A stretch of DNA of 47,993 bases from a virus: IMG/VR virus record IMGVR_UViG_3300008110_000088, positions 1-47,993 of that record. One strand, 5' to 3'. This document shows, in pieces, positions 142-47,183 of this stretch. Made by a program: the position numbers and the translations under genes. Positions within the stretch are counted from its first letter, which is position 1; the number at the start of each line of letters is the position of its first letter. Under the pieces are notes generated by a model that worked only from the letters and a program-made list of their open reading frames with translations, was not told the origin of the DNA and did no database searches.

Positions 142-144
142 TTA

Positions 145-199
145 AAATAACTTATAAAATTTATTGTTATTTATAGTAAATTAATTGGTTGTATTTATT
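145..199 (-). promoter_or_regulatory. Two late promoters and hairpin upstream of the pirin-like gene
   Basis: On the minus strand TATAAATA occupies 175-168, a perfect T4 late octamer, and AATAAATA followed by C occupies 199-192. Seven-base arms GTTATTT (166-172) and AAATAAC (145-151) can pair. The upstream arm overlaps the proximal octamer, so RNA started there would lack it. The downstream arm ends three bases before the ATG. Confidence 0.55.
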
Positions 200-205
200 A
201 TAATC

Positions 206-1591
206 TTATAGACCGTATGTTGACCTGTTAGCGTTAAAGTTCTGTAGTACTTGACTGGCAGTCAATGCAGCATTGTACAATCTTATTATACCTATACGTC
301 CGGTAAAATACTGACTATATTCTCCATTGTTGTAACTGCCTAGATACAAGTTAGATGGTGTATTTAATAGGCTAGATAGGGTATGTGACACAGAACCTAT
401 GCTAGAACCGTTAATGTAAGTTACTAGTGTTTTAGTGGCGCCGTTTGTCCAAACATACACAATATGTACCCAAGTATTAAGCGACATTGTGTAACTTGTA
501 CTGTTGACATAGGAACCTAAACCGTCCCCAAATTGAGCGAACGCGGTGGCTGTAGCTATACGAATTGAATATGACACATCTTGTGAGCCACCTCCGGGAT
601 CAAATTTACCTAGAATAGTTTTAGTTCCAGCACCTGTATTGCTAAGATAAGCCCAGGCTTCCATAGTCCAACTTCCAGATCCAGGTTCTAATAATGCATT
701 ATCCGGAATATTAACCTGACTGTTAGTACCATTATATGTAAAGTACGGATCAGTATAAGTGATGTTGCTCATTGTACCATTTAATCCGTTGCCTGAAATA
801 TCAAACAATGTTGTTCCTGTTCCCGGATAACTTGTAGTTAAATCAGGATTGTAATAAGCGACTAAATTAGTAGTTACACTGAAATATTTAAGAGATAATG
901 CATTATAGTTTTGTGTTATTTCATCCGCAGATAGTGCCCGTCCATATACAGCAGTCATACCAATATCTCCGTACCAGTAGTTGTCACCTAAAGCTACATA
1001 TTCTCCACTGTTGGCGCCATATTGAGCAAATGTTACACCAGTGTTAGTTCCCACAGGTTGTCCGTTGAGATAATAAGTTACTAGTCCGCCGGTGGTATGC
1101 GTAATTGCGATAACAAGCCACTGCATATATGCTATTGATAGATTGTTGCTAAAACCTCCAACGCCATTGGCACTGTAATGTAGTTTAAAGTTTGATCCAT
1201 CAAAGTACATATAGGTATTAAAATTTCTAGTGCCACCATTGGTTCCAAACAAACAACGATATTGACCGGACGAAAAAGAACTGTTGGCCATTCTTGCGGC
1301 CACTATAACAGTCTTACCAGTGTAGGCAACATTAAACTTACTTGCTGTTGTTGAAGCGTACTGTGCACCTGTACCACTAAAAGTAAAGTAGCTGGCAACA
1401 CCGGCACTGTTAAAGGTAGGGTTACCAACTAATATAGCATTGCTGGCATTGTCTGATAAACCAGTCCAGGCTGTTCCTGTGCCAGGATAACTGGCAGCGT
1501 TGCCAGCATCTACATACAACAACGCACCGTTACTATTAAACGAATTGTCATATACATTTACACCCTGTAAAGTTACACCTTGTATAATCAT
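206..1591 (-). CDS. Tandem LamG-like (concanavalin-fold) adhesin/fibre protein
   Basis: This 461-residue protein is made of two similar halves, about residues 20-235 and 240-460. Each begins with a (L)(L/A)YxDxG/NPDLTTSYPGTGT-type motif and continues as a LamG/concanavalin-like jelly roll. The second half has typical features such as SWTMEAWAYL and RIGIIRLYNAALTASQ. The first has the matching GDIGMTAVYGRALSADE. Such Laminin_G_3 domains bind carbohydrate or serve as trimeric fibre tips in phages. The ATG shares bases with the stop of the upstream fibre gene (TAATG, 1589-1593), so the two are translationally coupled and probably assemble together. An exact receptor cannot be inferred. Confidence 0.8.
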   Translation of the reverse strand: MIIQGVTLQGVNVYDNSFNSNGALLYVDAGNAASYPGTGTAWTGLSDNASNAILVGNPTFNSAGVASYFTFSGTGAQYASTTASKFNVAYTGKTVIVAARMANSSFSSGQYRCLFGTNGGTRNFNTYMYFDGSNFKLHYSANGVGGFSNNLSIAYMQWLVIAITHTTGGLVTYYLNGQPVGTNTGVTFAQYGANSGEYVALGDNYWYGDIGMTAVYGRALSADEITQNYNALSLKYFSVTTNLVAYYNPDLTTSYPGTGTTLFDISGNGLNGTMSNITYTDPYFTYNGTNSQVNIPDNALLEPGSGSWTMEAWAYLSNTGAGTKTILGKFDPGGGSQDVSYSIRIATATAFAQFGDGLGSYVNSTSYTMSLNTWVHIVYVWTNGATKTLVTYINGSSIGSVSHTLSSLLNTPSNLYLGSYNNGEYSQYFTGRIGIIRLYNAALTASQVLQNFNANRSTYGL

Positions 1592-5900: not shown

Positions 5901-7592
5901 TTATTTTCTCAACAAGGGAGGAATTCCTGCCCTACTTACTTTAAAATTAAATGCTTTTGCATTCTTCTTAATTGTATCTGGTTTAACATCTACCGTTAAT
6001 GCCGTTTTAAATCTTGGATCGTTTTTTTCTTTTTCACTGGGTATATATCCTGAAACTTCTGCTACATTCTGTTTTAATTTTGTTAACTCATATGCAATTT
6101 GGTCGCCATGGTCTTCAGCATATGGTTCATATCCCCATGCTGTTGCATAACGCTGAACTAGTCTGTTGTATAATTTTGCACGACTTTCTCTGTTTTGTCC
6201 CGGTTGAACATCTTTGTTAGCTGAGAATGTCAAACGCCATGGTTTATATTTTTTAATAAATTTTTGCATGGCTGTTAACACTGTAGCAAACACTCGTTGA
6301 GCATCACCTTCGCCAGTGACTTCTTGGCTGTTGTTTCTGTAAAATTCAACTTGCCACTCATCACCCTGATTGTTAAACATGATACTAATATTAGTACCAT
6401 CGGGCAGTTTGGCTAACATATCAACATCGCCATACTCACTCTTTTCTGATTTGGTCTTGTACGGTTGGTCAAATACTTCATTTACATTGTATGTAGGATC
6501 AGTCTTTTGACGTTTTATATTCTTAGGTTGATTAGGATCAACTGGATCAATGTCTGTTGTTGTTAATCCAGTCTTCTTTAAAGCATCAATATACTTATGT
6601 TCTTCCTCTTCACTGCCAAACGCCATAATAGTGCTAGGAGGTCCCTTACCAAAGTCATGTTTACCTAATCCTTTAAGATTACTGATATGTTGACCTAACT
6701 TATACCAATCATACACATCACTAACATCTACTTTGACCGTACCTGCAGGCATAGTTGGTTTAGTCTCTGGACCAGGAGGAGGTCCATTTGGATCGTAATC
6801 TTCTTCAGTTTTAAATCTAGTAAACTCATTAGCCAAACTATCTGCTAAATCATTTCTTTTTACTTTTCTAATTACTTTATTTTCAGGTAAACTTAGTCTT
6901 TCACTATGTAACTCATCTAGTTTTTCATATAGTCTTTTAATAATACCCTGTGTACGCAATGCTTTGAATGCTAAATTCTCTGGTCCAAACTCACCATTTA
7001 AATCTAATCCAGCTTGGCGATATTTCTTAATAGTTTTCAATACGCCCTGTATCTTTTCATAACTATTAGAACGTAGGGCAAATTCTGCTAGTTTGGCTAT
7101 TTTCTTAAATTTTGCTTTGGCTGCTACTTGGTCAAGGTTAGCTTTACGCTTTCTAGGTAATTTAATCCATTTATTGTTTAATATACTATACTCACCCAAA
7201 CTTATTACAGGTTCATTTGCATCCTGTACATATAATTCTACTTCATACCCGTTAATTACTATATCATGTTGGTCATTATATACTATCTTTTTAGCGTCAA
7301 ATAACTCACGGTATACGTCATCGTCAGTAAAACCAGTCATATCAACTAAAATATGTAGGTCTATATCGCTGTGTTTAGTATACGAATAGGCTGCGTTGCT
7401 TCCAGATAATGTTATATCCTTAACGTCTAAATCGTCTATTCCCAAATGTTCTATGAAATCGTCAGCTATAATTAGTAATTGTTGGCGAACTTCGTCATTC
7501 ATATGATCACCGTCAAATATAGCTTGATTTAAATCGGTATGAAAGTATAATGCGTCACTTAGCTTGAAATCGTGTAATTCTTTAAGGTCCAT
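5901..7592 (-). CDS. Pol-beta-type nucleotidyltransferase-domain protein
   Basis: The N-terminal domain carries the nucleotidyltransferase signature: GSNAAYSYTKHSDIDLHIL at residues 64-82, with the DxD pair D76/D78. A candidate third carboxylate is E120, in YEVELYV. The family transfers a nucleotide to protein, RNA or small molecules; the substrate here is unknown. The middle region is Lys-rich and the C-terminal part has an SRAKLYNRLVQRYA stretch seen in other phage proteins, with no function I can assign. I start at the ATG at 7592. The longer frame begins inside the terminator of the upstream gene. There is no Shine-Dalgarno, and a late promoter lies only 4 bases upstream, so the late mRNA may be leaderless. 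The length is 563 residues. Confidence 0.75.
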   Translation of the reverse strand: MDLKELHDFKLSDALYFHTDLNQAIFDGDHMNDEVRQQLLIIADDFIEHLGIDDLDVKDITLSGSNAAYSYTKHSDIDLHILVDMTGFTDDDVYRELFDAKKIVYNDQHDIVINGYEVELYVQDANEPVISLGEYSILNNKWIKLPRKRKANLDQVAAKAKFKKIAKLAEFALRSNSYEKIQGVLKTIKKYRQAGLDLNGEFGPENLAFKALRTQGIIKRLYEKLDELHSERLSLPENKVIRKVKRNDLADSLANEFTRFKTEEDYDPNGPPPGPETKPTMPAGTVKVDVSDVYDWYKLGQHISNLKGLGKHDFGKGPPSTIMAFGSEEEEHKYIDALKKTGLTTTDIDPVDPNQPKNIKRQKTDPTYNVNEVFDQPYKTKSEKSEYGDVDMLAKLPDGTNISIMFNNQGDEWQVEFYRNNSQEVTGEGDAQRVFATVLTAMQKFIKKYKPWRLTFSANKDVQPGQNRESRAKLYNRLVQRYATAWGYEPYAEDHGDQIAYELTKLKQNVAEVSGYIPSEKEKNDPRFKTALTVDVKPDTIKKNAKAFNFKVSRAGIPPLLRK

Positions 7593-7606
7593 AATGTATT
7601 TATGAA
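7588..7606 (-). promoter_or_regulatory. Late promoter overlapping a start-codon hairpin
   Basis: CATAAATA followed by C lies at 7604-7597 on the minus strand, 4 bases before the ATG at 7592. The bases TCCATAA (7588-7594) and TTATGAA (7600-7606) pair over seven positions, allowing one G-U in RNA, so the ATG sits in the downstream arm. The spacing puts transcription start at or next to the start codon. Confidence 0.5.
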
Positions 7607-7627
7607 AAAAGGCTGTCAATGACAGCC
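7605..7627 (-). terminator. Rho-independent terminator of the glycosyltransferase gene
   Basis: On the minus strand a GGCTGTC / GACAGCC stem (7627-7621 with 7617-7611) with a three-base loop is followed by six T residues (7610-7605). It lies 28 bases after the stop at 7655 and is directly followed by the next late promoter. Confidence 0.85.
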
Positions 7628-7654
7628 CTTTAAGGTTAGTTTAAATTTTAAAGT

Positions 7655-8653
7655 TTAAATTTTCTTGCTAGCAGCTTTTTTAGCAGTAGCTTTCTTTGGA
7701 GTAGCATCTACTGGAGCAGCTACAGCAGGAACACTAGGTTGCTCTACAGCCGGAGCCTGTGCTTGTTGTGCTTCTAGTGCTTGCTTCTTCTTCAATTCTT
7801 CAATGTACATAGGACCAATTGTGTTCAACAAGTTGTCCTGATTTTCCATACAGAATACATAACTACCACTGTGGCGTAACAATACACGCTTGTCAACATA
7901 TACCTTACCGCCGATATCACGCCAGTTTTCACAGAATGTCCAGTCTTCGCTGTAGTAACGACCTTGACGCACTGCTGTGTCAAAGTATGTTTTCAAGTGT
8001 TGGTCAAATTTGGGGTCAAGTCCGATATCATTCTTATACGGCTTAACTGCTGGATGAGATTTAAGTTTATCAAATACATGACGCTTCATCAACAAGAATC
8101 CTGTACCTGCTTTACTTACTTCTTGGAATCCATCTGGGCCTTCTTCTGCACCCTCAAATCCATTGACTACCCACTTGATCGGCATAGTCTTCATTGGATA
8201 TAGTCCACCGATAACATCAACATTACGATTCAACAATACTAGCAAGTGCCATGGCTCCCAACCAATATCTGCGTCAACAAAGAACAAGTGTGTTGATTCT
8301 TTTTGATCTAAGAACTTAGCAGTTAATGTATTACGGGCACGACTGATAAGACTTTCATTAACCATTGTTTCCAATGTCCAGTCAATACCAAGTTGACGGG
8401 CCGTATTTGCCCACTTAATAAATGACATGAATGTACTCTCAGTCAACATGCCACCATAGCAGGGCATTGCGATGTGTACACGGGTAGTACGTAGATAATC
8501 TACATCTACTTGCACTTGACCCGGTTGCGGGGCTTGCTGTGCGGGTTGTTGTGCTTGGTCAGCTATTTCCTGAACCTTTTCAACGGGTACAGTTTTTGCT
8601 TCTTTTGTTGCTGCCTTTGCGGTAGCTTTTGTAGTTGGTTTTTTTGTTGCCAT
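7655..8653 (-). CDS. GT-A fold glycosyltransferase with Lys/Ala-rich tails
   Basis: The core, about residues 57-270, matches phage GT-A glycosyltransferases. It opens with VHIAMPCYGG, then SLISRARNTL, then the nucleotide-sugar/metal DxD site in HLFFVDADIGW (D127, D129). VIGGLYPMK and a late SEDWTFC segment (235-241) follow. It probably moves a sugar from a nucleotide donor to a virion, DNA or host acceptor; the acceptor is unknown. Unusually, both ends are histone H1-like: residues 1-20 and 319-332 are almost only Lys, Ala and Thr. Shine-Dalgarno AGAGGA precedes the ATG at good spacing. A weak late-promoter-like TGTAAATA lies at 8684-8677. A strong terminator follows. Confidence 0.8.
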   Translation of the reverse strand: MATKKPTTKATAKAATKEAKTVPVEKVQEIADQAQQPAQQAPQPGQVQVDVDYLRTTRVHIAMPCYGGMLTESTFMSFIKWANTARQLGIDWTLETMVNESLISRARNTLTAKFLDQKESTHLFFVDADIGWEPWHLLVLLNRNVDVIGGLYPMKTMPIKWVVNGFEGAEEGPDGFQEVSKAGTGFLLMKRHVFDKLKSHPAVKPYKNDIGLDPKFDQHLKTYFDTAVRQGRYYSEDWTFCENWRDIGGKVYVDKRVLLRHSGSYVFCMENQDNLLNTIGPMYIEELKKKQALEAQQAQAPAVEQPSVPAVAAPVDATPKKATAKKAASKKI

Positions 8654-8703
8654 ATGGTCCTCTTAAATGATAGTAATATTTACAACTTGAGGGCCAAGCC
8701 GAA

Positions 8704-9759: not shown

Positions 9760-10115
9760 TAATAACTTACCTTGATATTTTGCACTACACCAGCACTAAA
9801 GTTATTAAGTTTAGCACGTAGCCAAACATAATTTCCTGTGATATTTGTATATCCATTTTCACTTAATGCTACTACAGAATTAGAATAAACTGTAAACCAA
9901 TCACTATCCGTAGCTTCATTAGGCGCGGTTAACAATGTAGCTTGTATGATAATAGTACCAGTTACACCACTTAAACTCCATGTAACTGTCTGCAAATCTG
10001 CGTTGCCTAAATAATAAGCAGCGGCGGGCTGTTTAATGCCCCTAACAACCGGATTAGGAGATCCAGCGTTATATGCTGTTTGCCCCAATAATTGCAATGT
10101 AGTAGATTGTGCCAT
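9759..10115 (-). CDS. Small beta-rich protein, probably virion-associated
   Basis: This 118-residue protein has no recognised family. It is rich in alternating hydrophobic and Thr/Ser residues typical of beta sandwiches (GTIIIQATL, YVWLRAKLNNFSAGVV), with no catalytic motif, signal peptide or membrane segment. It is coupled at both ends, by TAATG with the 55-residue gene upstream and with the nucleotidylyltransferase downstream. Late-promoter control and composition suggest a structural or decoration role, but this is inference. Confidence 0.6.
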   Translation of the reverse strand: MAQSTTLQLLGQTAYNAGSPNPVVRGIKQPAAAYYLGNADLQTVTWSLSGVTGTIIIQATLLTAPNEATDSDWFTVYSNSVVALSENGYTNITGNYVWLRAKLNNFSAGVVQNIKVSY

Positions 10116-10282
10116 TATGGTTTCACAACCTCTACAACTACAGAATCCCCTACTAATTCTTGGGCTACTTGTTCTAGTGCTTGATGAACGTCAGAACCAG
10201 CAATGGGAGAACTATCTCCCTCACTATCCTTAACAATCTTGCTGAATTTGATGACTAATACATCTTCTACAATTTTTGCCAT
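10115..10282 (-). CDS. 55-residue conserved-type small protein
   Basis: The start is an ATG at 10282 preceded by GGAG at about 9 bases, and the stop TAA overlaps the next ATG. The product begins MAKIVEDVLVIKFSKIVKD and ends VVVEVVKP. It is a short alpha/beta acidic protein without a known motif. Coding is supported by the Shine-Dalgarno, the strong late promoter just upstream and the TAATG coupling. Function is unknown. Confidence 0.65.
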   Translation of the reverse strand: MAKIVEDVLVIKFSKIVKDSEGDSSPIAGSDVHQALEQVAQELVGDSVVVEVVKP

Positions 10283-10284
10283 GA

Positions 10285-10311
10285 AAATACTCCATTAATA
10301 GAGTATTTATC
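10285..10311 (-). promoter_or_regulatory. Late promoter inside an RBS-sequestering hairpin
   Basis: GATAAATA followed by C lies at 10311-10304, overlapping the TGA stop of the upstream gene (10312-10310). Eight-base arms AAATACTC (minus strand, 10308-10301) and GAGTATTT (10292-10285) flank an eight-base loop. The downstream arm contains most of the GGAG ribosome-binding site of the 55-residue gene. RNA begun at this promoter would start in the loop and lack the upstream arm. Confidence 0.65.
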
Positions 10312-11011
10312 ATTGTTCTGGGCGTTTCTCTAGTTTAAATCTACTCTTAACCATATCCCCAAACATAATACTAATCAAAGTAGTGATAGAATCATCGTTA
10401 TAATCAATAAAATAATGACTAGAACAATAGGGGCCATACCAGTAATATTGTTTAGATTTACCTAGTAACCAGTTATTTAGTGCATTACTGGGAACAATCA
10501 CAGTTTCAGTATCTTTATATCTATCTATAAATTTATATAAATCATCTTTAAATTTATCATCAACTCTTTTAGATTTTAAATAGATCCTATATTTGTGAGT
10601 GGGTTCTTTAACAAAATACTTAGTACCCTTAGGTACCTCAGTGTCAACTTCGGTATAGTCAAACTCGCAATCAAAATTTTCTACCTGCTTTAAAAAATCT
10701 AAATCATTAGAAAATATAGATGCAATATTACCTTCCATACGTATTGTATGTGTGCGATCTTTACCAATAGGCAAAGAACTTTTCCAATCTAAAAATTTCT
10801 TAATACTTTCTATATTAGCATTTTTCCATCTGGAAGCTCTTTTGTCAATATAAGAGTCAATGTCATTAGCAGATTTTACATACCAGCACATTGTTATACC
10901 CTCACAATAAATCCTAGCCCTATAATTATATTTACCATAATACAGACTACCGCGATTATCAATGTAGCCTACGCCATCATTGCGGATCGGTGTTAATTTT
11001 AATAATCCCAT
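10310..11011 (-). CDS. Conserved-type hypothetical protein (233 aa)
   Basis: The family is not recognised. The protein is rich in Tyr, Lys and Asp, mixed alpha/beta, with no membrane segment. Notable stretches are YNYRARIYCEGITMCWYV near the N-terminus and QYYWYGPYCSSHYFIDY near the C-terminus. The ATG at 11011 lies inside the end of the clpA-like gene (35-base overlap) and is preceded by AGAGG, which supports this start. It is probably co-transcribed with the unfoldase gene. The stop codon overlaps the next late promoter. Confidence 0.65.
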   Translation of the reverse strand: MGLLKLTPIRNDGVGYIDNRGSLYYGKYNYRARIYCEGITMCWYVKSANDIDSYIDKRASRWKNANIESIKKFLDWKSSLPIGKDRTHTIRMEGNIASIFSNDLDFLKQVENFDCEFDYTEVDTEVPKGTKYFVKEPTHKYRIYLKSKRVDDKFKDDLYKFIDRYKDTETVIVPSNALNNWLLGKSKQYYWYGPYCSSHYFIDYNDDSITTLISIMFGDMVKSRFKLEKRPEQ

Positions 11012-13259
11012 CTTCCCCTACCTCTGCTATTAATTTAGGTTGTACATCGAAAACAATTTCATCGTTCTCAATTCGTGTAACAATTACACTATTTTTAATC
11101 TTTTCAAATATGATTTTCTTACTCAACGGTACTCTAATCAATGAATCAATCTTTCGTGCTAATGGTCTAGCACCCATTTTACTATCATATCCCTTTTCAG
11201 CTAGATATTCTACAACAGGTTCACTTAATTGTAGACTAATATCGTGCGTATCTTTTAATGATTTCTTCAAGTCATCGGTAAATTTAATAACGATTTTTTT
11301 GATTGCTAGCATATCTAGTTTACCAAACTTACAAATCAAGTCAATGCGATTCCTGAATTCAGGCTTGAAGAAATCTTTAAGTGCTTTATCATCTTCTCCG
11401 GTACGTTCTTGATTACCAAAGCCTATCTGATTACGCTCACTATCACTTGCTCCCAAGTTACTGGTCATAATAATGATACAGTTTTTAGCATTAACTTCTT
11501 TGCCATTAGTACCAGTGACACGACCATCATCAAGTAATTGCAAGAAGATATTAAAGATATCGGGGTGTGCTTTTTCTACTTCATCAAATAGTAGAATACT
11601 ATGCGGGTTCTTACTTAAGTCATTGATAAGTTTACCACCACCCAAACTACCCTCACCGAATCCTACATATCCAGGGGGTGCGCCCAACAATGCTGACACA
11701 TTGAACTTCTCTGAGTACTCACTCATATCATATTTCAATAATGTCATATCAAGATTCTTGCTTAGTAGTCGAGCCAATTCTGTTTTACCAGTACCAGTTG
11801 GGCCTAAGAATAAGAAACTTGCCATTGGCTTAGTTTGAGTTCCAATACCTGCAAAACTTACATATATACGCTCAAGTACTTTATCTACTGTTTCCTCTTG
11901 TCCGTATAATCTATCTTTGATATTACTCTCCAATGCATGAATTCTGTCATAGTTATCATCTTTGAGTTTATCTGCGGGCACACCAGCAATTCGTTCTACT
12001 TGCTCGTAAATTAATTCTTTAGTAATGTCTGCACCCTTGTTTTCCAATACACGTTGTTTAGCACATGCCGCATCTAACAAATCAATTGACTTGTCTGGAT
12101 TTTTACGGTCATGAATATAACGTGTAGCACTTTCTACTGCGGCAGTAATTGCGTCATCGGTAATGTTTACATTATGAAATTCATTAAGCCTAACACTCAA
12201 TCCAGTTAAGATTTTGATTGTGCTTTCAGTTGATGGTTCATCAATACTAACCCTGTAGAATCTACGCATCAACGCACGATCCTTCTCAAAACTCTCGTAG
12301 TATTCTTCCCACGTTGTGCTAGCAATAACTTTTAGATTACCCTTAGTAATCGCTGGCTTAATCATATTGGCAAAGTCTACTGAGCCGTTACTAGCACTAC
12401 CGGAACCCTTCATGGTATGTGCTTCGTCAATAAACAATATTGCTTTCTTCTTAGCTACCAATGCTTCTAGTACTGCTTTGATTTTTTCTTCAAAATCTCC
12501 CCGATACTTACTACCGGCAAGTAAATTGCCAACTTCAATGCTGTATACTTCATGGTCTAACAAGAACTCGGGAACATTACCATCTGAAATTTGCTGTGCA
12601 AGTCCTTCAGCAATTGCTGTTTTACCTACACCAGGATCACCAACCATCAATACATTTGACTTGAATCGTTTAGCTAGTACATTGATAATGTCATTCAATT
12701 CTGAACTACGACCAATCAATGGGTCTAATTTACCAGTACGTGCTAATTCGCTTAGATTGATAGTGTACTCATCCAAGATTTCGTTAGCTTGGCTATCAGT
12801 CAATTTAGCTGGTGTGTCGCTATTTTTATAATGTTTCTGCCAATATGGTACAAACTCATTTTTAGTCAAACCATATTTTAACAAGAAATAATGTGCATGG
12901 CTATTTGTTTCTGCACTGATACTTAGATACAAGTCAATAGTAGTTACAACTTTTCTTCCTGTAAATAGTACCTGAGTGATACTACGATTCATTACACGTT
13001 CTAATGCATTAGTTTTGCGTGGTTGAATCTCTATCCCTGTAATGTTTTTCTGTTCAATTGCTCGTAGATTATCAACATAGTTGACTAGTTCTTTGGTCAT
13101 TGTTTCAGTATCAACACCATAATTATCTAAACACTTTTTAAATGGTGCATGAGTTACTAATGATAGTAATAGATGTTCTATTGTGCAATATTCATGGCTA
13201 CGTGCTTTAGCCAAATTAACGGCTTGTTCAATGATAACCTCAATTTCAGGACTGTTCAT
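10977..13259 (-). CDS. clpA: ClpA-type AAA+ protein unfoldase
   Basis: This 760-residue protein is colinear with bacterial ClpA, which is about 758 residues. It has an N-domain with AKARSHEYCTIEHLLLSL. The first AAA+ module has Walker A GDPGVGKT (207-214) and Walker B ILFIDEAH (274-281). The second has GPTGTGKT (486-493) and LLFDEVEKAH (556-565). Arginine-finger candidates lie in MRRF and EFRNR. The ClpB middle coiled-coil is absent. In D2 an IGF tripeptide (612-614) occupies the position of the ClpP-docking IGL/IGF loop. So it likely feeds host ClpP rather than acting as a disaggregase. Shine-Dalgarno AAAGGA precedes the ATG. A dnaJ gene lies immediately upstream in the same transcript. Confidence 0.93.
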   Translation of the reverse strand: MNSPEIEVIIEQAVNLAKARSHEYCTIEHLLLSLVTHAPFKKCLDNYGVDTETMTKELVNYVDNLRAIEQKNITGIEIQPRKTNALERVMNRSITQVLFTGRKVVTTIDLYLSISAETNSHAHYFLLKYGLTKNEFVPYWQKHYKNSDTPAKLTDSQANEILDEYTINLSELARTGKLDPLIGRSSELNDIINVLAKRFKSNVLMVGDPGVGKTAIAEGLAQQISDGNVPEFLLDHEVYSIEVGNLLAGSKYRGDFEEKIKAVLEALVAKKKAILFIDEAHTMKGSGSASNGSVDFANMIKPAITKGNLKVIASTTWEEYYESFEKDRALMRRFYRVSIDEPSTESTIKILTGLSVRLNEFHNVNITDDAITAAVESATRYIHDRKNPDKSIDLLDAACAKQRVLENKGADITKELIYEQVERIAGVPADKLKDDNYDRIHALESNIKDRLYGQEETVDKVLERIYVSFAGIGTQTKPMASFLFLGPTGTGKTELARLLSKNLDMTLLKYDMSEYSEKFNVSALLGAPPGYVGFGEGSLGGGKLINDLSKNPHSILLFDEVEKAHPDIFNIFLQLLDDGRVTGTNGKEVNAKNCIIIMTSNLGASDSERNQIGFGNQERTGEDDKALKDFFKPEFRNRIDLICKFGKLDMLAIKKIVIKFTDDLKKSLKDTHDISLQLSEPVVEYLAEKGYDSKMGARPLARKIDSLIRVPLSKKIIFEKIKNSVIVTRIENDEIVFDVQPKLIAEVGEDGIIKINTDPQ

Positions 13260-13277: not shown

Positions 13278-13285
13278 TATTTACT
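13278..13285 (-). promoter_or_regulatory. Weak late-promoter-like octamer before clpA
   Basis: AGTAAATA followed by C on the minus strand (13285-13278) contains the TAA stop of dnaJ. It ends 18 bases before the clpA ATG. The first two bases differ from the best sites in this window. Confidence 0.35.
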
Positions 13286-14075: not shown

Positions 14076-14119
14076 AATATTGATTATAGCACGTTAAATG
14101 TGCTAAGTCAATATTTATG
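14076..14119 (-). promoter_or_regulatory. Overlapping sigma70 and late promoters in a nested hairpin
   Basis: On the minus strand TTGACT (14111-14106), a 17-base spacer and TATAAT (14088-14083) form a sigma70-type promoter. CATAAATA (14119-14112) is a late octamer containing the TAA stop of the holin gene. An outer 8-base inverted repeat (14076-14083 with 14108-14115) encloses an inner 6-base repeat TAGCAC / GTGCTA (14087-14092 with 14100-14105). The outer downstream arm abuts the dnaJ ATG. Confidence 0.75.
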
Positions 14120-15300: not shown

Positions 15301-15923
15301 TACATGCCTCCCATTGCCGGTGCTTGTCCGGGTGCTGGAGGTAATCCTCCCATAGCGCCCAGATCTGGGCCGGCCCCTTGAGTTTGACTATCTTCAGTTT
15401 CACTACCTTCAGTATCTAAATCATTTTCGTATGCTGAATCTAATTCATCCAAGTCAATGTTTTGACCAGCTAAATCAATACTTCCCTCACGAATGTCATT
15501 CATCAAGTCTTTTGGCATTTCAATGCGGATAAGCCAAATTTCACGTTCTATCATCTTAGGATAATGAGTTCCGGGCTTAAAGTCACTTGGATTTTTAATT
15601 TCAATAGGAACTTTGATTTTTGTCTTTTTGAATTTGATGTTGCACCCTACAGATAACAATCTTTTAGCACCCCTTGGATCGGGCATAAGTTTTAGTGGAT
15701 ACATAAAGGTACAATCAACACTATACCTTTTAACATTAGGACCAGAAACTACTTCACCTAATTCCCAATTACGGTATGCATATAGATCGCTTTCATCCAA
15801 AACTCGTTCAAAATCAAGCAAGGTGCTCATTGATCCATCACTAGTGTAGATGCCCTTAATGGTACTGACGATACTCTCAAAATTGATATCGTCAAAGAAT
15901 TCGTCTGCTTTTAATTTGCTCAT
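15300..15923 (-). CDS. Hypothetical phage protein with Gly/Pro/Ala-rich tail (207 aa)
   Basis: Residues 1-150 are globular, with MYPLKLMPDPRGAKRLL and a Lys-rich beta segment. About 150-185 is strongly acidic. The last 25 residues are low complexity (GAMGGLPPAPGQAPAMGGM). I choose the ATG at 15923. A GTG further upstream would place a late promoter inside the gene. No Shine-Dalgarno is seen, and GATAAATA ends exactly 5 bases before the ATG, so the late RNA may start at the A of ATG. It is coupled to the next gene by TAATG. Function is not recognised. Confidence 0.7.
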   Translation of the reverse strand: MSKLKADEFFDDINFESIVSTIKGIYTSDGSMSTLLDFERVLDESDLYAYRNWELGEVVSGPNVKRYSVDCTFMYPLKLMPDPRGAKRLLSVGCNIKFKKTKIKVPIEIKNPSDFKPGTHYPKMIEREIWLIRIEMPKDLMNDIREGSIDLAGQNIDLDELDSAYENDLDTEGSETEDSQTQGAGPDLGAMGGLPPAPGQAPAMGGM

Positions 15924-15928
15924 AGTTG

Positions 15929-15936
15929 TATTTATC
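15929..15936 (-). promoter_or_regulatory. Late promoter placed for a leaderless mRNA
   Basis: GATAAATA followed by C, minus strand, 5 bases before the ATG at 15923. If T4 late geometry holds (octamer about -13 to -6), transcription starts at the ATG. Confidence 0.6.
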
Positions 15937-20089: not shown

Positions 20090-20123
20090 ACACAACTATA
20101 ACACGTTTGTGTGTATGATGCAA
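20090..20123 (-). promoter_or_regulatory. Sigma70-type promoter in a hairpin before the DnaE-like gene
   Basis: TTGCAT (20123-20118), a 17-base spacer and TATAGT (20100-20095) lie on the minus strand, with the -10 ending 5 bases before the ATG at 20089. Arms ACACAA and TTGTGT (20112-20107 with 20095-20090) flank the -10 region, and the downstream arm touches the ATG. Confidence 0.45.
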
Positions 20124-20729: not shown

Positions 20730-20962
20730 TTATTGTCTTTGCTAATATTAATTTTGTTTCCTAAATTTTGCTTCTTATAGACTTCATCTATACGTTTGCT
20801 ATATTCTACTTTATAGCTTTCTAAAACCATAAGCATTTGCTGTATCATAGGCCCGTTCTGAGACCTGTATACAAAATTTAGTTTTTTTGTTAGATCCTGA
20901 ATGGTATTTTGCAATTCTTCAATTGTCTTACCACCTAGATCGTTAATGAAAGGATGTTGCAT
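20726..20962 (-). CDS. Small coiled-coil hypothetical protein (78 aa), first gene of the replication operon
   Basis: It begins MQHPFINDLGGKTIEELQNT, followed by heptad-like helices (LTKKLNFVYRSQNGPMIQQM) and a basic tail. No family with a known role is recognised; its size and helical character fit a small binding protein. There is no Shine-Dalgarno. The ATG lies in one arm of a perfect palindrome containing a consensus late promoter, spaced so that RNA would begin at the A of ATG. Confidence 0.7.
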   Translation of the reverse strand: MQHPFINDLGGKTIEELQNTIQDLTKKLNFVYRSQNGPMIQQMLMVLESYKVEYSKRIDEVYKKQNLGNKINISKDNK

Positions 20963-20982
20963 TCACATATTTATATGTGAAT
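20961..20982 (-). promoter_or_regulatory. Consensus late promoter at the centre of a perfect palindrome
   Basis: Ten-base arms (20961-20970 and 20973-20982) around a two-base centre are exactly complementary. The minus-strand octamer TATAAATA occupies 20975-20968, across the centre. The ATG of the 78-residue gene begins at 20962, inside the downstream arm and exactly 5 bases after the octamer. Confidence 0.75.
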
Positions 20983-20995
20983 GTATTGATGGAAA

Positions 20996-32441: not shown

Positions 32442-32449
32442 TATTTATC
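32442..32449 (-). promoter_or_regulatory. Late promoter fused to the gp16 stop codon
   Basis: GATAAATA on the minus strand includes part of the TGA stop (32450-32448) of the small terminase gene. It ends 19 bases before the ATG at 32422. Confidence 0.65.
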
Positions 32450-32930: not shown

Positions 32931-32959
32931 GCTATTTGTCCATAATAGCAGTATTTATT
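32931..32959 (-). promoter_or_regulatory. Late promoter with start-proximal hairpin before gp16
   Basis: AATAAATA followed by C (32959-32952) overlaps the TAA stop of gp4. Six-base arms GCTATT and AATAGC (32949-32944 with 32936-32931) end directly before the ATG, with the weak GGAC ribosome-binding site in the loop. Late RNA would lose about half of the upstream arm. Confidence 0.5.
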
Positions 32960-33763: not shown

Positions 33764-33785
33764 ATACCTCGTAGAAGTATTTATG
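33764..33785 (-). promoter_or_regulatory. Late promoter in an RBS-sequestering hairpin
   Basis: CATAAATA followed by C (33785-33778) includes the TAA stop of the upstream gene. In RNA, ATACTTC (33780-33774) can pair with GAGGTAT (33770-33764) over seven bases with one G-U and a three-base loop. The GAGG ribosome-binding site is in the downstream arm. RNA from this promoter would begin in the loop. Confidence 0.6.
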
Positions 33786-39343: not shown

Positions 39344-39691
39344 ATGATTAGACCTGTTTGCAAAGAATGCAATAAAAATCTATGTGCAGTAAATTATATA
39401 CGCAATGAAAAAACATACTATAGGAGTATGTGTGATGAGTGTGGCAGAAAGAAAAATAAGAAAAAGCCAAGAATACCGAGTTGGCAAAAAGCAGGGTATA
39501 AGAAAAAACCCGCATGTGATGTTTGCGGGTTTAAATTTCTATATCCTTCACAAGCTACAGTGTACCATACTGATGGTAAACTTGAAAATAATCAGTATAC
39601 CAATCTACGAACAGTCTGTTTGAATTGTATAGAAGTTATAAAACGAAAAGAAGTTACTTGGCGTAAAGGGGACTTAGAGGTTGATTATTGA
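39344..39691 (+). CDS. HNH-like zinc-binding protein (115 aa)
   Basis: Four CxxC pairs are present (C6-C9, C30-C33, C58-C61, C92-C95). The second half reads YHTDGKLENNQYTNLRTVC, which matches the H-x-DG...NN...NLRTVC core of HNH nucleases. The final His of a classical HNH site is not evident (CLNCIEV instead of CxxCH), so it may be a DNA-binding relative rather than an active nuclease. It is plus-strand between minus-strand sheath and dNMP kinase genes; its end overlaps the latter by 18 bases. No Shine-Dalgarno is seen. Confidence 0.75.
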   Translation: MIRPVCKECNKNLCAVNYIRNEKTYYRSMCDECGRKKNKKKPRIPSWQKAGYKKKPACDVCGFKFLYPSQATVYHTDGKLENNQYTNLRTVCLNCIEVIKRKEVTWRKGDLEVDY

Positions 39692-40309
39692 TTTGACCTT
39701 AGTGTGTAAGTCATCTATCGAACCATTATTGTCTATGTAATGGTCATATTTTAATCCAACACTACTGTACTCACTTGCATGTACTTTTTGTTTGTCTAAT
39801 TTAGTTTTACTTAGGGCCCACATACTATTGCCATTAGCACCGCGATTAAATGCTATTGCGGCATCATACCATTTAGGTCTCTCACCGCGTTCTACCCTCA
39901 TTGTAATGCCACCTGCAGTTTTGATAGCATTTACTTCATTAGCAAAACGACAGTCAGTAATAACAATATTGTCTTTAGTCTTGCGTAATTGATTTTCTAC
40001 ACTTGCTACCCAGATATCATTGTGAAATCCATTGCGACAAACTTCTGTTCCCCATTGTTGCAATACCCACCTAGGAGTAAGTTCAGGGATGTTTAATCGT
40101 TCACTCCACCACACATCTAATTGCTCTCGCCATTCTCTACTAGACTTTGTAGTTCCCTCTAGTAATTCTCGGTCCCAACCAAAAACTGCGGAACAAGCAT
40201 CTTTGAGTGTACCTGCAAAACTAATTCTTTTATACCCGTGAAATGTAGTAAGATAGTCAGCAATAGTGTCTTTGCCGCTACCAATAAACCCAGTGATACC
40301 TATAATCAT
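39674..40309 (-). CDS. 1: Deoxynucleoside monophosphate kinase, gp1-like
   Basis: The P-loop is GFIGSGKDT (residues 7-15). GYKRISFAGTLKDACSAVFG, LTPRWVLQQWGTEVCRNGFH and NIVITDCRFANEVNAIK follow. These segments are typical of the T4 gp1 dNMP kinase, which phosphorylates dNMPs for phage DNA synthesis. The length, 211 residues, is near the usual size. AGGAG precedes the ATG. A sigma70-type promoter placed within a hairpin controls it, fitting early expression. Confidence 0.88.
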   Translation of the reverse strand: MIIGITGFIGSGKDTIADYLTTFHGYKRISFAGTLKDACSAVFGWDRELLEGTTKSSREWREQLDVWWSERLNIPELTPRWVLQQWGTEVCRNGFHNDIWVASVENQLRKTKDNIVITDCRFANEVNAIKTAGGITMRVERGERPKWYDAAIAFNRGANGNSMWALSKTKLDKQKVHASEYSSVGLKYDHYIDNNGSIDDLHTKVKSIINL

Positions 40310-40317: not shown

Positions 40318-40357
40318 TCCTGTACAATATTATATTACAGGACTATGAAAAAGTAAA
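40318..40357 (-). promoter_or_regulatory. Sigma70-type promoter inside an RBS-sequestering hairpin
   Basis: TTTACT (40357-40352), a 17-base spacer and TATAAT (40334-40329) lie on the minus strand. Seven-base arms TCCTGTA and TACAGGA (40342-40336 with 40324-40318) flank the -10 box, and the downstream arm covers part of AGGAG. RNA begun near 40322 would keep the ribosome-binding site but not the upstream arm. Confidence 0.65.
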
Positions 40358-40364: not shown

Positions 40365-41126
40365 TTAACCAATTACAAATGATAGCGGTTGACTATAATC
40401 TACAAAACGCTTTAAGTCTTCCAATAATTGGTCTTGCATTGCTTTGCCTTCAGCCTTTAATGTAGCTCCATTAAGTGTGGTGCCACCACCTGGACCTGCA
40501 ATACTAGCAAACTTTTCACGGGCTTCACCTAACATTAATTTTAATTGACTAAGTGTCCAATCACCTATCCAAATACCAGCACCAGGATCCTGCAATAAAA
40601 CTTGTTCAGGCTTTTGAATATCTGCCCATATCAATACTTGTTCTCCGCTACCTTTAGGGTCACGAACAATACGCAATTCTTTTGTAACAGGATTGAATGT
40701 GAATATAACATATCCACCGAACATACGTGCCGCTAATTCAATATACTGAGCATAGAAGTCATAGGTAGCTAAACCACCTGCTTGGTTATAATTTAGCAAA
40801 TAGGTATTAAGAATGGCACTACTAAAAGGGTCGAAACTGCTTGCGGCAGGGCCTGTCTCTAAACCAACCGTTCTACGAAATAATTGTCTTACATTAATGA
40901 ATTCCGAAGGTAATGTATATACATCTACATTTCTTTCTATCTTTAATAGGGTATAAGATTCTTGTGTAGAATTCTGAGCCCGTTGTCTATAAATTTTAAC
41001 TGCATATTGATATGCAGCCTCATAGTGTTCAGGGTCCAATTCCACATCAACTATTCCGCCACCAAGACGTAAATTTAAATTTCTAAATAGGTCTTCTTTT
41101 AATTCGTCCAGCGTAGTACCAGCCAT
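40365..41126 (-). CDS. 13: Neck protein, gp13-like
   Basis: This 253-residue protein shows the gp13 neck-family pattern: LKEDLFRNLNLRLGGGIVDV (9-28), DPEHYEAAYQYAVKIYRQRA, YTLPSEFINVRQLFRRTVGL and FDPFSSAILNTYLL. IELAARMFGGYVIF, GEAREKFASIAGPGGGTTLN and a final VIG follow. In T4, gp13 joins packaged heads to tails with gp14. It is divergent in place from the gp14 gene, which is on the other strand 2.7 kb away. GGAG is present in a hairpin arm. Confidence 0.75.
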   Translation of the reverse strand: MAGTTLDELKEDLFRNLNLRLGGGIVDVELDPEHYEAAYQYAVKIYRQRAQNSTQESYTLLKIERNVDVYTLPSEFINVRQLFRRTVGLETGPAASSFDPFSSAILNTYLLNYNQAGGLATYDFYAQYIELAARMFGGYVIFTFNPVTKELRIVRDPKGSGEQVLIWADIQKPEQVLLQDPGAGIWIGDWTLSQLKLMLGEAREKFASIAGPGGGTTLNGATLKAEGKAMQDQLLEDLKRFVDYSQPLSFVIG

Positions 41127-41129: not shown

Positions 41130-41160
41130 GTTCTCCAGATAGTGTATTTATCTGGAGAAC
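41130..41160 (-). promoter_or_regulatory. Late promoter inside an 11-base perfect RBS hairpin
   Basis: Eleven-base perfect arms GTTCTCCAGAT (minus strand 41160-41150) and ATCTGGAGAAC (41140-41130) surround a nine-base loop. GATAAATA followed by C occupies 41152-41145. The GGAG site for gp13 is in the downstream arm. Expected initiation near 41139 removes the entire upstream arm from late RNA. It begins 9 bases after the mazG stop. Confidence 0.8.
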
Positions 41161-41899: not shown

Positions 41900-42601
41900 A
41901 TGATATTTAGCAAAAATAACTATCCGACGGGATTTTATGTGTACGCATATCTGCGTAATAATGGAACACCGTACTATATCGGAAAAGGTAAAAGTAAACG
42001 GGCAATTGAAAAACACTCCGTCAGTGTACCGAAAAACTTTGAAAAAATAATAATACTTGAAAAAGATTTATCTGAATTAGGTGCCTTTGCCATTGAAAGA
42101 AGAATGATTCGTTGGTATGGGAGAAAAGACTTGGGAACCGGTGTACTGCTGAACCGCACCAACGGGGGTGAGGGTAATTCAGGGATAGTTCAGACTGAGG
42201 AGTCAAAACGAAAACGGTCTGAAAAATTAAAGGGGAAACCTAGTGCTAGACAAAACTACAAAACTTCTGACAAAACTAAAGAAAAGTTAAGAGTGGTATT
42301 GACTGGGAAAACAAGAAGTGACCAACATAAAATTAATAATGCTATGGCTAACAAGGGTAAGAAAAGGTCTGCTGAACAAAATGAAGCTAACCGAATAAGA
42401 AATTTAGGGCAGAGCAATGCAAATTATGACGCTACCATGTATTCGTTTACTCATCTTAATGGCGTGATTGAAACATGCACTAGAAACAAGTTTAGTAAAA
42501 AGTATAGTATTCCGGTCGGAGATATAGGAAGAGTTACTTCTGGAAAATTAAAAAAGATTAAGGGATGGTTTATCACCCCTTATCTTCTTACCAAGCCTTA
42601 A
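41900..42601 (+). CDS. GIY-YIG homing endonuclease with NUMOD3-like repeats
   Basis: The N-terminal GIY-YIG nuclease domain has GFYVYAYL (11-18), [11 protein letters not shown] (25-35), the probable catalytic E66 in AIERRMI, and [10 protein letters not shown] (84-93). Residues 98-170 contain two or three NUMOD3-like basic helices, for example [30 protein letters not shown] and [16 protein letters not shown]. The C-terminus has a helix-turn-helix-like [20 protein letters not shown]. Free-standing enzymes of this kind spread by cutting phages that lack them. AAGGAG precedes the ATG. Its end overlaps the convergent gene by 14 bases. I see no group I intron around it. Confidence 0.9.
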
Positions 42602-43748
42602 GAACAATCATATTGTCATTTGTCCTACCATTAGGGGTAGTACCCACAGCCTTCACTTCGTCAAAGAACTTTCTACCCGCGGGCTTACCTAACTTCATAA
42701 ATTCTTTTAGCTGGTCTCCGGGTTTCCGCAAAGTCTTAGATTGGCTCTTGTTGATGTCGATACCTAGAATTGCAGTTCCCTTGACAGTAAATGACTTACT
42801 ATACTCATCCGCAACTAGATAAACTAGTTTACGCTTTACTGTATCATACAGATAACATTCACTAGAGCCATGAAGTTTAGTTGGATGCACACTAATCAAA
42901 TCCAGTTTATTGATTGGATCCTTGAATTCTTTCAAGTACTTCAATTTAGCTACAATCTTCTCAATAGGTACCGCTTTCTTTTTACGGGGTGCTTTGCTAG
43001 CTTTCTTAATTGAGATATAGCTATTAAGGTCACTCAACACCTGCTCAATAAATTTAAGTGTATTACGCAATTTAACTTTGCCCAAATAATTATAGGCTTC
43101 TGCCAATTGCTCGTCCTCACCCTGAGAAACCATATCAAATTCTTGTTGCTTACGTTTCCAGATTTCAACAATCAATGGGATATGCTGGGGCATGACATTA
43201 AACTTAGCAACAATGTCAACTGTTTTTTGTGTAACTTTCTGGTCAGTGATCCATTCATCAAAAATAGATTCTAGTTCACCTGCGGCTTCTAGTGCTTTTT
43301 CACGCATAATCTCCTGCACATTAGGACGATTACTGGGTTCTTTTTCTTTTTCAATAACCTCAGGCTTGTTGACCAATTTGTACAATCGGCTTATCTCATT
43401 TTCAAGGGTAGTTGATTCATGTTCATTAAGTTCCAGTCCACGCAATGTCATGCGGGCCAGCCAACACAACGTCATCAAAAACTCAGATTCGTGAACCTTA
43501 CGCAAATGTTTGGCTTCAACAATACGATTGTGATATTCTAGGTATGAACAAATCAACTCTTTGGCATCTTTTTTACCATAAAAACGATTGTACCATGTAA
43601 AACTTTGTGTCAATGCCAAAGTTCTACGATCACTATCGGGTTGCAATGGGAAGAAGGGTTCTTCACCCATATATTTTGTGTCAGCATCACGTGGATTTAG
43701 TGCTTTGACAAAGTGGTCAGAAGTTGGTTTGGGTTTACGGGTTGCCAT
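42588..43748 (-). CDS. Hypothetical phage protein (386 aa), early-type promoter
   Basis: This soluble, mainly helical, Lys-rich protein begins [20 protein letters not shown]. Recognisable runs include [20 protein letters not shown], a [20 protein letters not shown] basic segment near residue 255 and [20 protein letters not shown] near the end. It resembles conserved unknowns of T4-like phages, but I cannot assign a function. AGGAG precedes the ATG. A perfect-consensus sigma70 promoter lies directly upstream, unlike the structural genes around it. Confidence 0.7.
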
Positions 43749-43823: not shown

Positions 43824-43831
43824 CATAAATA
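43824..43831 (+). promoter_or_regulatory. Late promoter of the gp14-gp15-Nudix operon
   Basis: CATAAATA followed by C on the plus strand, 20 bases before the gp14 ATG. No strong Shine-Dalgarno lies between. It is the main late promoter seen on this strand. Confidence 0.6.
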
Positions 43832-43851
43832 CTAAGTAAACGGATAACAAC

Positions 43852-45783: not shown

Positions 45784-45791
45784 GGTTTATA

Positions 45792-47162
45792 ATGGCACAG
45801 TTTTTTTACGACAATCAAATAAGAAGATTCTTAATTCAGTTTGCAAGAATTTTCAGCAATTGGCAAGTAACTAAAGGCAAAGACCCTGCAGGTAATGACA
45901 TACTTATACGTGTCCCTATTCAATATGGTGATTCAAGTCGTATGGCTAGTACGCAAATTGCACAGAATAGCCCTAGCAGTTTACCTAGCGCGCCTTTGAT
46001 TACGTATTACATTAGTGGATTAGAATATGATCAGAAAAGAACACAGGATCCTTATTTTATTGATAAGGTAAGTGTTCGCCAACGTCAGTATAATACAGAG
46101 ACTCAAAGTTATCAAACAACACAAGGGCAAGCATTTACAGTAGAACGTGTAATGCCAGTTCCCTATACATTACGAATAACAGTAGATTTTTGGACAACTA
46201 ACTATTTGCAAAAATTAGAATTGATAGAACAACTAGGTGTGTTATTCAATCCTAGTATGGAACTACAAAGCACAGATAACTTTATTGATTGGACCAGTTT
46301 AAGTGTTGTATATCAAGATGGATTGACATTTAGCAGTAGAACAATACCACAAGGTACTGGCAACCCTATTGATGTGTTGACTTGGAAGTTTTGGATGCCA
46401 ATCTGGATTAGCAGTCCTGCTAAGATTAAGAAACTTGGTGTTATTCATAAAATTATTGCTAGTATATTTAAGGGCAATGCTCTTACAGATATGCAAGATG
46501 ATGATATGTTATTGGGAACTAGACAAAAGATTACCCCCTATGGTTATAAAATATTGTTCATAGGTAACACATTACAAATATTACCTAGCAACGAGGCTTT
46601 TTATCCAAGAAATACAGACTTAGATTTACCAACTAACCCTGATACAACCGTGTATTGGCAAAGTGTATTGAATGTATATGGCACTGTACGCCCCGGTATC
46701 AGTCAGATTTGGTTACAGAATCCATATATGGATACCGAGATTGTAGGTACAATTGCGTTTAATCCAACTGATGATAGATTATTAATATATGATATTGACG
46801 TTGACACATTGCCAGAAAATACTTTACAGGCTGTAGATAGTGTTGTCAACCCGTTACTAAAAGGTCCAGGTCATGGATTGCCAGAGGCTGAATCAGGTCA
46901 GCGTTATCTTATTGTAGAGGCTATTGGCAGTGAATTGAATACTGATCCATCTATTGCATGGGGTAATGTAGTTGCTAATGCTAATGACATTATTGAATTT
47001 GATGGTCTTGATTGGGTAGTAAGTTTTGATAGTGTTAACACATTGAATCTTGAATATGTTACTAACCTAACGACTGAAGTTCAATATCGTTGGGCAGAAA
47101 GTATGTGGATGAAATCATACGAAGGATGGTATGAGCAAGGGGATTATTCTATCGTAATCTAA
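45792..47162 (+). CDS. 15: Sheath stabiliser/terminator, gp15-like, enlarged (456 aa)
   Basis: The N-terminus follows T4 gp15. FFYDNQIRRFLIQFARIFSN (4-23) matches gp15 FYNSSFRRYATLMGDLFSN, and ILIRVPIQYGDSSRMA matches the IRVPITYASKEH segment. A PVPYTLRITVDFWTTNYLQK segment follows, as does LEQLGVLFNP-like ELIEQLGVLFNP. T4 gp15 has 272 residues. The extra C-terminal region (about 280-456) includes ANANDIIEFDGLDWVVSFDS. The protein would cap the top of the tail. The gene starts 8 bases after the gp14 stop. Confidence 0.72.
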   Translation: MAQFFYDNQIRRFLIQFARIFSNWQVTKGKDPAGNDILIRVPIQYGDSSRMASTQIAQNSPSSLPSAPLITYYISGLEYDQKRTQDPYFIDKVSVRQRQYNTETQSYQTTQGQAFTVERVMPVPYTLRITVDFWTTNYLQKLELIEQLGVLFNPSMELQSTDNFIDWTSLSVVYQDGLTFSSRTIPQGTGNPIDVLTWKFWMPIWISSPAKIKKLGVIHKIIASIFKGNALTDMQDDDMLLGTRQKITPYGYKILFIGNTLQILPSNEAFYPRNTDLDLPTNPDTTVYWQSVLNVYGTVRPGISQIWLQNPYMDTEIVGTIAFNPTDDRLLIYDIDVDTLPENTLQAVDSVVNPLLKGPGHGLPEAESGQRYLIVEAIGSELNTDPSIAWGNVVANANDIIEFDGLDWVVSFDSVNTLNLEYVTNLTTEVQYRWAESMWMKSYEGWYEQGDYSIVI

Positions 47163-47183
47163 TACTGTGATAAATCATAGTAT
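47162..47183 (+). promoter_or_regulatory. Late-like promoter at the centre of a near-perfect palindrome (Nudix gene)
   Basis: Ten-base arms (47162-47171 and 47174-47183) pair fully if one G-U is allowed. GATAAATC occupies 47169-47176 and is followed by exactly 5 bases and then the ATG at 47182. The geometry mirrors that at 20961-20982. The last base of the octamer is not consensus. Confidence 0.5.

Follow-up and report, generated by a model that had tools for sequence, protein, structure and literature searches.

Hairpin-embedded and start-proximal promoters suggest own-promoter-dependent translation in a clade of T4-superfamily phages

Introduction

When transcription reads through from one phage gene into the next, the same start codon lies both in the read-through RNA and in the RNA begun at the gene's own promoter, and the question arises which of the two is translated. 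It is raised by a 47,993-base stretch of viral DNA (an IMG/VR virus record; 36.9% G+C), hereafter the window, in which promoters lie within inverted repeats at gene starts or only a few nucleotides before the start codon. An earlier note on this DNA had named eleven stretches and claimed that at least ten gene starts share one design: the promoter core overlaps the upstream arm or loop of an inverted repeat, and the downstream arm holds the ribosome-binding site or the start codon.

For many genes in the group to which the window belongs, translation probably depends, in our judgement, on RNA begun at the gene's own promoter, along two routes. In the route led by a Shine-Dalgarno (SD) sequence, a late box (ATAAATAC) or a sigma70-type -10 element would occupy the upstream arm or loop of a hairpin of which the SD forms the downstream arm; read-through RNA from an upstream gene of the same direction would fold and hide the SD, whereas RNA begun inside the repeat would lack the upstream arm and leave the SD open. 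In the short-gap route, the distance from promoter to AUG is 3-6 nt for a late box and 5-6 nt for TATAAT, and the own-promoter RNA would begin on the AUG or no more than about 2 nt from it and thus be leaderless; in read-through RNA this AUG would be internal, without an SD, and at some genes also paired. Sequence-based support for this proposal comes from a two-peaked spacing of late boxes, from family-specific complementarity of the hairpin arms with compensatory change, and from the predicted openness of the starts in the two kinds of RNA.

The window comes from an uncultured myovirus of the T4 superfamily, of whose genome it is a fragment. A near-identity DNA search of a phage collection (50,697 records) with the window's first 24 kb gave no match, nor did an Rfam search at gathering thresholds; PHROG matches in the window are to clamp loader, PhoH, tail tubes, head closure, head-tail adaptor and deoxynucleoside monophosphate kinase families. 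Among the listed named phages, those nearest by the sheath gene are Atu_ph07, Phosso and the PA5oct group, with 46-47% identity across some 60% of the protein, and the ClpA-like gene has about 41% identity to Phosso and the PA5oct group; neither protein search had a close named isolate among the matches listed. The related loci number 160, being the best 80 of each of two viral-contig scans, and the ClpA-like ATPase gene (10977-13259, minus strand) is 73-100% identical (best segment) in the best 80 relatives. Because some of these loci come from contigs of 350-525 kb, we regard the source group as a clade of jumbo phages within the T4 superfamily. T4-type late transcription is likely in this clade, since a relative of T4 gp55, the late sigma factor (phrog_234), was found in four of 13 clade records (G012-G015; E about 1e-22), including the three largest, although one of the four matches is interrupted by a stop; none was found in the remaining nine records, which are of 53-171 kb and may be fragments.

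Hairpins with co-varying arms

All eleven stretches were re-read and folded (Table 1). The segment from -45 to +6 around each start was compared with 500 dinucleotide shuffles at a cut-off of p <= 0.05, the fold tests covering ATG starts of genes at least 60 nt from the end of their locus. Eight of the eleven listed starts passed (41126, 14075, 7592, 10282, 20962, 47182, 33760 and 40309), as against 2 of 35 unlisted starts in the window; above the cut-off were 32930, 20089 and the start at 141 behind site 145-172 (339/500), a site to which the fold thus gives no support. These p values are flattered because the listed sites had been picked by eye for their stems. The plain fold test in relatives, which took 70 randomly chosen box-free genes per phage, was not used as main evidence, as terminators upstream of late boxes raise its z.

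Table 1. Promoter and hairpin features at gene starts of the window. Openness is the predicted value for the SD or AUG in read-through RNA and in own-promoter RNA; shuffles, count out of 500; swap z, best of four splits in the family
Coordinates	Strand	Feature	Gene	Promoter, arms and predicted leader	Openness, read-through to own	Shuffles	Swap z
7590..7631	-	Rho-independent terminator, then late box 7596-7603 and AUG 7592	5901-7592	gap 3; predicted leaderless		0 (mostly terminator)	-9.2 (split 24; about -2 at splits 12-16)
8656..8695 (hairpin start region 8654-8698)	-	hairpin missed by the earlier note	7655-8653	upstream CCCTC pairs with SD GAGGACC; late-box variant TGTAAATA between arms	SD 0.28 to 0.78	167	-7.5
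10285..10308	-	10-bp hairpin	10115-10282	3' part of late box in upstream arm; SD GGAG in downstream arm	SD 0.01 to 0.74	2	-10.2
14076..14115	-	sigma70-type promoter with inner and outer stems	13281-14075 (DnaJ-like)	TTGACT 14106-14111, 17-bp spacer, TATAAT 14083-14088, 7 nt to AUG; predicted leader 1 nt	AUG 0.01 to 0.86	0	-10.8
15921..15936	-	GATAAATAC-4-ATG, no strong hairpin	15300-15923 (virion)	predicted leaderless		232	
20090..20123	-	promoter-like pair TTGCAT-16-TTATAG	19568-20089	ends 6 nt before AUG; predicted leaderless		253	-5.4
20960..20983	-	10-bp hairpin with AUG	20726-20962	late box TATAAATA in loop region; predicted leaderless	AUG 0.01 to 0.97	1	-3.1
32931..32949	-	7-bp hairpin	32448-32930	late box just upstream of stem; other registers in orthologues	AUG 0.59 to 0.24	49 (not significant alone)	-4.8
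33764..33780	-	hairpin	33395-33760	late box in upstream arm; SD GAGG and AUG side paired	SD 0.03 to 0.52	14	-8.0
40318..40342	-	hairpin	39674-40309 (deoxynucleoside monophosphate kinase)	sigma70-type -10 in upstream arm and loop; SD AGGAG in downstream arm	SD 0.20 to 0.72	22	-11.4
41130..41160	-	12-bp hairpin, fold -18.2	40365-41126 (head-tail adaptor Ad2-like)	late box ATAAATAC (41144-41151) in upstream arm and loop; SD GGAG in downstream arm	SD 0.00 to 0.87	0	-14.3
47162..47183	+	9-bp hairpin reaching AUG	47182-47610 (nudix)	late-box variant GATAAATC inside hairpin; predicted leader 1 nt	AUG 0.19 to 0.37	4	-7.3

Stronger evidence comes from a swap test, in which the upstream half of one orthologue was joined to the downstream half of another, folded, and compared with the own halves. 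It covered 56 families with at least eight distinct orthologues, at four split points of which the best z was taken; here, as in the hairpin survey, the G.U and A.C counts and part of the T-run count, upstream regions at 90% identity had been removed as near-identical. Since taking the best of four splits favours low z, the listed starts were compared with 46 other families treated alike: z <= -3 at one of the splits was reached by all ten listed starts tested and by 8 of the 46, among which one stood at -3.0 and one was positive at its other three splits. Judged from the sort order, own energies were not better than swapped ones in 11 of the 56 families. In 40 families mostly without a late box the median difference between own and swapped energies was near zero, and shared base composition therefore does not produce the effect. 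Families 8, 18 and 24, which mostly lack a late box yet respond, have a sigma70-type promoter or a variant box. Co-variation in relatives, which the earlier note had proposed as a check, is found, and what the note observed is largely, though not wholly, borne out; 20089 and 32930 pass the swap test without beating the shuffles.

Pair counts in alignments point the same way. In the family of 41126, 48 cells were changed on both sides as against 19.0 in shuffles (0/500), and the covariation score was 0.283 as against 0.123 (0/500); less striking is the number of pairs changed on both sides, 7 of 12 (5.6 in shuffles; 18/500). For the 40309 family this number was 8 of 13 as against 3.5 (0/500), with 17 cells as against 5.5. 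When the partner columns were shifted, the share of paired cells dropped from 86% to at most 42% in the 41126 family, and from 83% to at most 53% in the 40309 family. These counts lean towards promoter-bearing members, as the alignments (A1, 32 sequences; A2, 19) were filtered harder, by identity and by a visible promoter word, than the hairpin survey of the same families (37 and 39 sequences); a third alignment, A3, held 24 sequences where the survey of its family had 36.

For the SD-led listed genes, transcripts are predicted to start in the loop or at the base of the downstream arm, which covers the SD. The late promoter lies within the upstream arm or loop at 41126, 10282 and 33760, and so does a variant box at 8653, whose hairpin had been overlooked; the fold of the latter is unremarkable in the window alone, and 23 of 27 family members have a hairpin of at least 6 bp. 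The earlier note was right that some sigma70 promoters are embedded too, as at 40309 and 14075. Its expectation that read-through RNA is shut and own RNA open agrees with the predicted openness at five SD-led starts, and fails at 32930. Among late starts without a listed hairpin, four of five (21796, 32422, 35598 and 43852) show little change in openness; the fifth, 29071, has a weak SD and a predicted openness of 0.40 in read-through and 0.85 in own RNA.

Late boxes close to the start codon

No SD is seen at 7592, 20962, 47182, 14075 and 20089, where the promoter ends 3-7 nt before the AUG; the transcripts from these promoters are predicted to be leaderless or nearly so. Across six short-gap starts the predicted AUG openness is 0.01-0.28 in read-through RNA and 0.37-0.97 in own RNA. 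At 7592 the swap signal appears only when the split parts the arms of the terminator, so the stem listed at 7588-7606 is not established and the fold is mostly that of the Rho-independent terminator just upstream. Orthologues of 47182 bear the hairpin (at least 6 bp) in 13 of 16 cases. In several orthologues of 20089 the -10 element is the hairpin loop and the downstream arm touches the AUG. Gene 19568-20089 itself is a small stand-alone gene near the T4-like clamp loader; its 173-residue product has a match to the Pfam DNA_pol3_alpha NTPase domain at residues 97-172 (E 2.8e-9).

That the short gap forms a class of its own is seen from a spacing survey of 2796 genes in 219 loci. The first guesses at the motif, TATAAATA and CTATAAATA, gave no more hits than chance, and ATAAATAC was the better core (10 hits as against 5.4 expected). 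Gaps were measured between ATAAATA with one further base and starts that had been called independently; the start caller rewards an SD and ATG, and thus works against the short-gap class. Among 649 occurrences, 144 have a gap of 3-6 nt, 2 of 7, 6 of 8-14, 366 of 15-24 and 71 of 25-44. As these are box occurrences, with many orthologues of one gene, peaks were also counted by family: gap 3 has 15 families, gap 4 has 18 and gap 20 has 22. Words similar in composition (ATACAATA, ATATAAAC and AAATAATC) gave few hits and no two-peaked pattern. The ATAAATA core, most commonly followed by C, also serves at 15-24 nt before SD-led starts, and an SD is found in 70% of long-gap genes as against 42% of genes without a box. 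The spacing is not fixed within families: in 35 and 27, and in a single case in 22, some orthologues have the short gap and others the long one, with the same Met and first residues.

The T4 late box begins at -13 (PMC2988020). If the eight-base box of this clade likewise spans -13 to -6, a gap of 4 sets +1 on the A of the AUG and gaps of 15-24 give leaders of about 11-20 nt. The short-gap late genes are accordingly predicted to have leaderless mRNAs, and the near-empty zone is that of a leader too short for an SD yet not absent; two spacing classes with such a zone between them are expected if leaders must either suit an SD or be absent.

Sigma70-type promoters follow a similar spacing. TATAAT stands 5-6 nt before the AUG in 46 occurrences from 12 families, including those of the DnaJ-like gene and of gene 19568-20089, and a loose -35-like word lies 15-24 nt upstream in all 46, as against 13 of 33 at a gap of 8-14. 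In the DnaJ-like family the arms lie within the spacer and the -10 element and change together in the swap test, which alone covers the inner stem, because registers shift in the MAFFT alignment; the outer stem by itself shows little covariation. The upstream regions of family 4 in related loci have a side peak of ATAAATAT at 33-37 nt before the AUG, seemingly derived largely from the DnaJ-like family (AATAAATATTGAC), and this may be an extra late promoter or merely the outer stem arm.

Distribution among related phages

The SD-led hairpin is far from universal. With one member taken per family, a fold of <= -7 kcal/mol is found in 30% of SD-led late-box families and in 13% after swapping, so the earlier description of the design as looking like a general rule was too strong. 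Own and swapped mean energies differ by 1.1-1.4 kcal/mol in this class, and in three settings none of 200 swaps gave so low a mean. The gene upstream runs in the same direction at 139 of the 141 SD-led starts with a hairpin and at 119 of the 130 that lack one, and read-through is thus possible in both groups.

Pooled over ten clade records and the window, the swap z is -9.5 (148 starts). The same test gave -2.7 for T4 (22 starts), -3.2 for S-PM2 (10), -2.5 for PA5oct (26) and -4.0 for Atu_ph07 (37), which makes the hairpin design appear an old and widespread trait of the T4 superfamily, present at a minority of its late promoters. The T4 proteins among the strongest folds we take to be gp49, e and I-TevI, and probably also gp53 and gp4. 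Ten of the 22 T4 late-box starts fold at p <= 0.05 against shuffles, beyond the few textbook cases.

The short gap is distributed differently. A late-box gap of 3-6 occurs at 0 of 238 T4 genes and 0 of 163 S-PM2 genes (which have one case at gap 2), and is nearly absent from Atu_ph07 (1 of 644) and PA5oct (2 of 288). It occurs at 17 of 385 genes in G013 and 26 of 386 in G015, two large records sampled along their whole length that have 24 and 18 late boxes, respectively, at the long, SD-led position; the ten clade records G001-G010 hold 51 such occurrences in all. TATAAT at a gap of 5-6 is likewise absent from T4, S-PM2 and Atu_ph07, with one case in PA5oct.

Alternative explanations

Several observations weigh against the two-route proposal or limit its reach. 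Most SD-led late promoters have no strong hairpin, and the number of base pairs across the arms is the same for own and swapped halves, own pairings in this class being stronger, not longer. Taken singly, 8 of the 11 clade records reach 5%, and G002, G005 and G009 miss it. Pooled across families, the short-gap late class has no hairpin excess (z -0.4; -1.0, -1.0, -1.9), and at 32930 the predicted openness falls in own RNA. For the leaderless prediction the start position of T4 has been assumed, and the absence of an SD from the short-gap class follows from the box position, which forces it. ATG is used at all 144 short-gap starts and at 1925 of 2165 starts without a box, yet also at 362 of 364 long-gap starts; an alternative SD-led start within 18 codons is found at 0 of 144 short-gap and 1 of 362 long-gap starts. 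Being alike in both classes, these two figures show only that the starts are well placed. At 23 of the 144 short-gap starts there is no in-frame stop within 60 nt upstream, and 13 further ones have another in-frame start within this distance. The frequency of G before the box (0.33 in the short class, 0.67 in the long one) is unexplained. G.U pairs exceed A.C mismatches in core stems (115 to 73) and nearly as much elsewhere (117 to 88), and in family 4 the direction is opposite (4 to 12), so that this comparison does not decide between RNA and DNA as the seat of the stems.

Chance, arising from AT-rich DNA and the self-complementarity of the late box, is a very improbable source of the stems. 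It can draw on the picking of sites by eye, on the three sites that fail against shuffles (145-172, 20089 and 32930) and on the 13% of strong folds that swapped partners still give; the swap controls, however, retain composition and box, and own partners win nonetheless, while the 40 box-poor families centre near zero, which contradicts chance for most listed sites. That the repeats are intrinsic terminators, halting read-through before the gene's own promoter takes over, is more worth weighing, though improbable. At least five T within 7 nt after the stem are found in 12 of 34 members of the deoxynucleoside monophosphate kinase family, which also counts against a switch there, and in 6 of 27 of family 23, and terminator-like stems lie within 50 nt upstream of the box at 28 of 144 short-gap starts (7 families) and 47 of 362 long-gap starts. 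Terminators account in part for 7592 and perhaps for a third of the kinase family; in families 19, 1, 18, 22, 4, 38 and 24, however, a T-run follows only 2 of 189 stems, and a terminator has no need of a downstream arm that is the SD or abuts the AUG.

The dyads could instead be DNA operators of dimeric regulators that overlap the promoters, a reading we hold to be quite improbable. T4 intron endonucleases do bind operators overlapping their own promoters, as reported in PMC2988022, and family 4 has the excess of A.C mismatches given above; a fixed binding site, however, would not have arm sequences that co-change within families, and G.U exceeds A.C in families 8 (30 to 6) and 38 (9 to 0). 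At the DnaJ-like family the RNA hairpin is held less firmly, owing to the weak covariation of the outer stem and the predominance of A.C over G.U. As for the short-gap ATAAATAC, it might be not a promoter but an AU-rich initiator, that is, a translation signal other than an SD. AU-rich leaders help initiation in some bacteria, the word directly precedes the AUG, and the base before it differs from that of the long-gap class. We give this reading little credence, because the same ATAAATA core stands at SD-led genes, orthologues switch between the spacings, TATAAT shows the same short spacing, and some short-gap boxes, such as that of 7592, directly follow a terminator, which leaves little room for another promoter.

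Own-promoter gating by the two routes thus remains the preferred reading, with transcripts that would start within the repeat or at the AUG, read-through RNA that would stay silent, a host that would translate leaderless RNA, and a possible gain in timing. Its SD-hairpin half has a direct experimental precedent in T4, and its short-gap half is a prediction. A bolder version, which we put forward tentatively and with somewhat more doubt than belief, is that late expression throughout the clade, and part of its sigma70-driven expression, has been reorganised around leaderless mRNAs, alongside hairpin-gated SD genes, with translation of many genes dependent on their own promoter. Pervasive read-through would then cost no protein, and infection may shift ribosomes towards initiation at a 5'-AUG.

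Other genes in the window

Two adjacent genes on the minus strand, 33781-34959 and 34972-35598, both match the tail tube family phrog_4542, one being far longer than the other, and are perhaps a duplicated tail tube. A homing-endonuclease-like gene (41900-42601, plus strand; phrog_314) is convergent with gene 42588-43748 and overlaps its end; no significant structure was found at its start (82/500 shuffles).

Comparison with known systems

In T4 genes e, soc, 49 and I-TevI, the late promoter lies in the upstream strand of a helix that sequesters the SD or AUG, and late RNA of such genes lacks the upstream part of the helix (PMC3014915). The five SD-led starts of the window resemble this switch in having a promoter in the upstream arm or loop, of the late type except for the sigma70-type one at 40309, and an SD predicted to be closed in read-through RNA and open in own RNA. 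They differ from it in that the hairpins of the clade stand at adaptor, kinase and small-protein genes with compensatory changes over dozens of relatives, and in that the clade's most frequent box is GATAAATAC and a sigma70-type promoter is found embedded as well. The same hairpin architecture is described for the T4-related homing endonucleases segB, mobE, I-TevII and I-TevIII in PMC2988022; the hairpinned genes of the window, unlike these, are others than the homing-endonuclease-like gene. The SD-led part is thus the known e/I-TevI switch, used more widely, and its breadth or covariation in this clade was not found reported in the open-licence literature searched. The co-evolving arms show an RNA switch of the T4 lysozyme type to be distributed over a T4-superfamily clade, beyond lysis and homing genes.

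Leaderless mRNAs are known from lambda cI and are common in some bacteria. In E. coli they prefer AUG, according to PMC9031893. The short-gap genes would be like them in having an AUG at or near the 5' end, as predicted from their spacing. According to a remark in a paper on phage AR9 (PMC5312081), transcripts of phages often lack a leader, which tells against phage leaderless RNA being new in itself; no report of leaderless late mRNAs in T4-like phages was noticed among the open-licence papers that the searches listed. The leaderless late class, missed by the earlier note, looks unusual for T4-like phages, and differs from known leaderless mRNAs in being, as predicted, a large standing class of gp55-type late promoters, of which the same count finds none in T4 and S-PM2. 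Should the predicted 5' ends be borne out, the clade could be used to study under what conditions and for what reason a virus resorts to leaderless initiation, and whether the host ribosome is changed to favour it.

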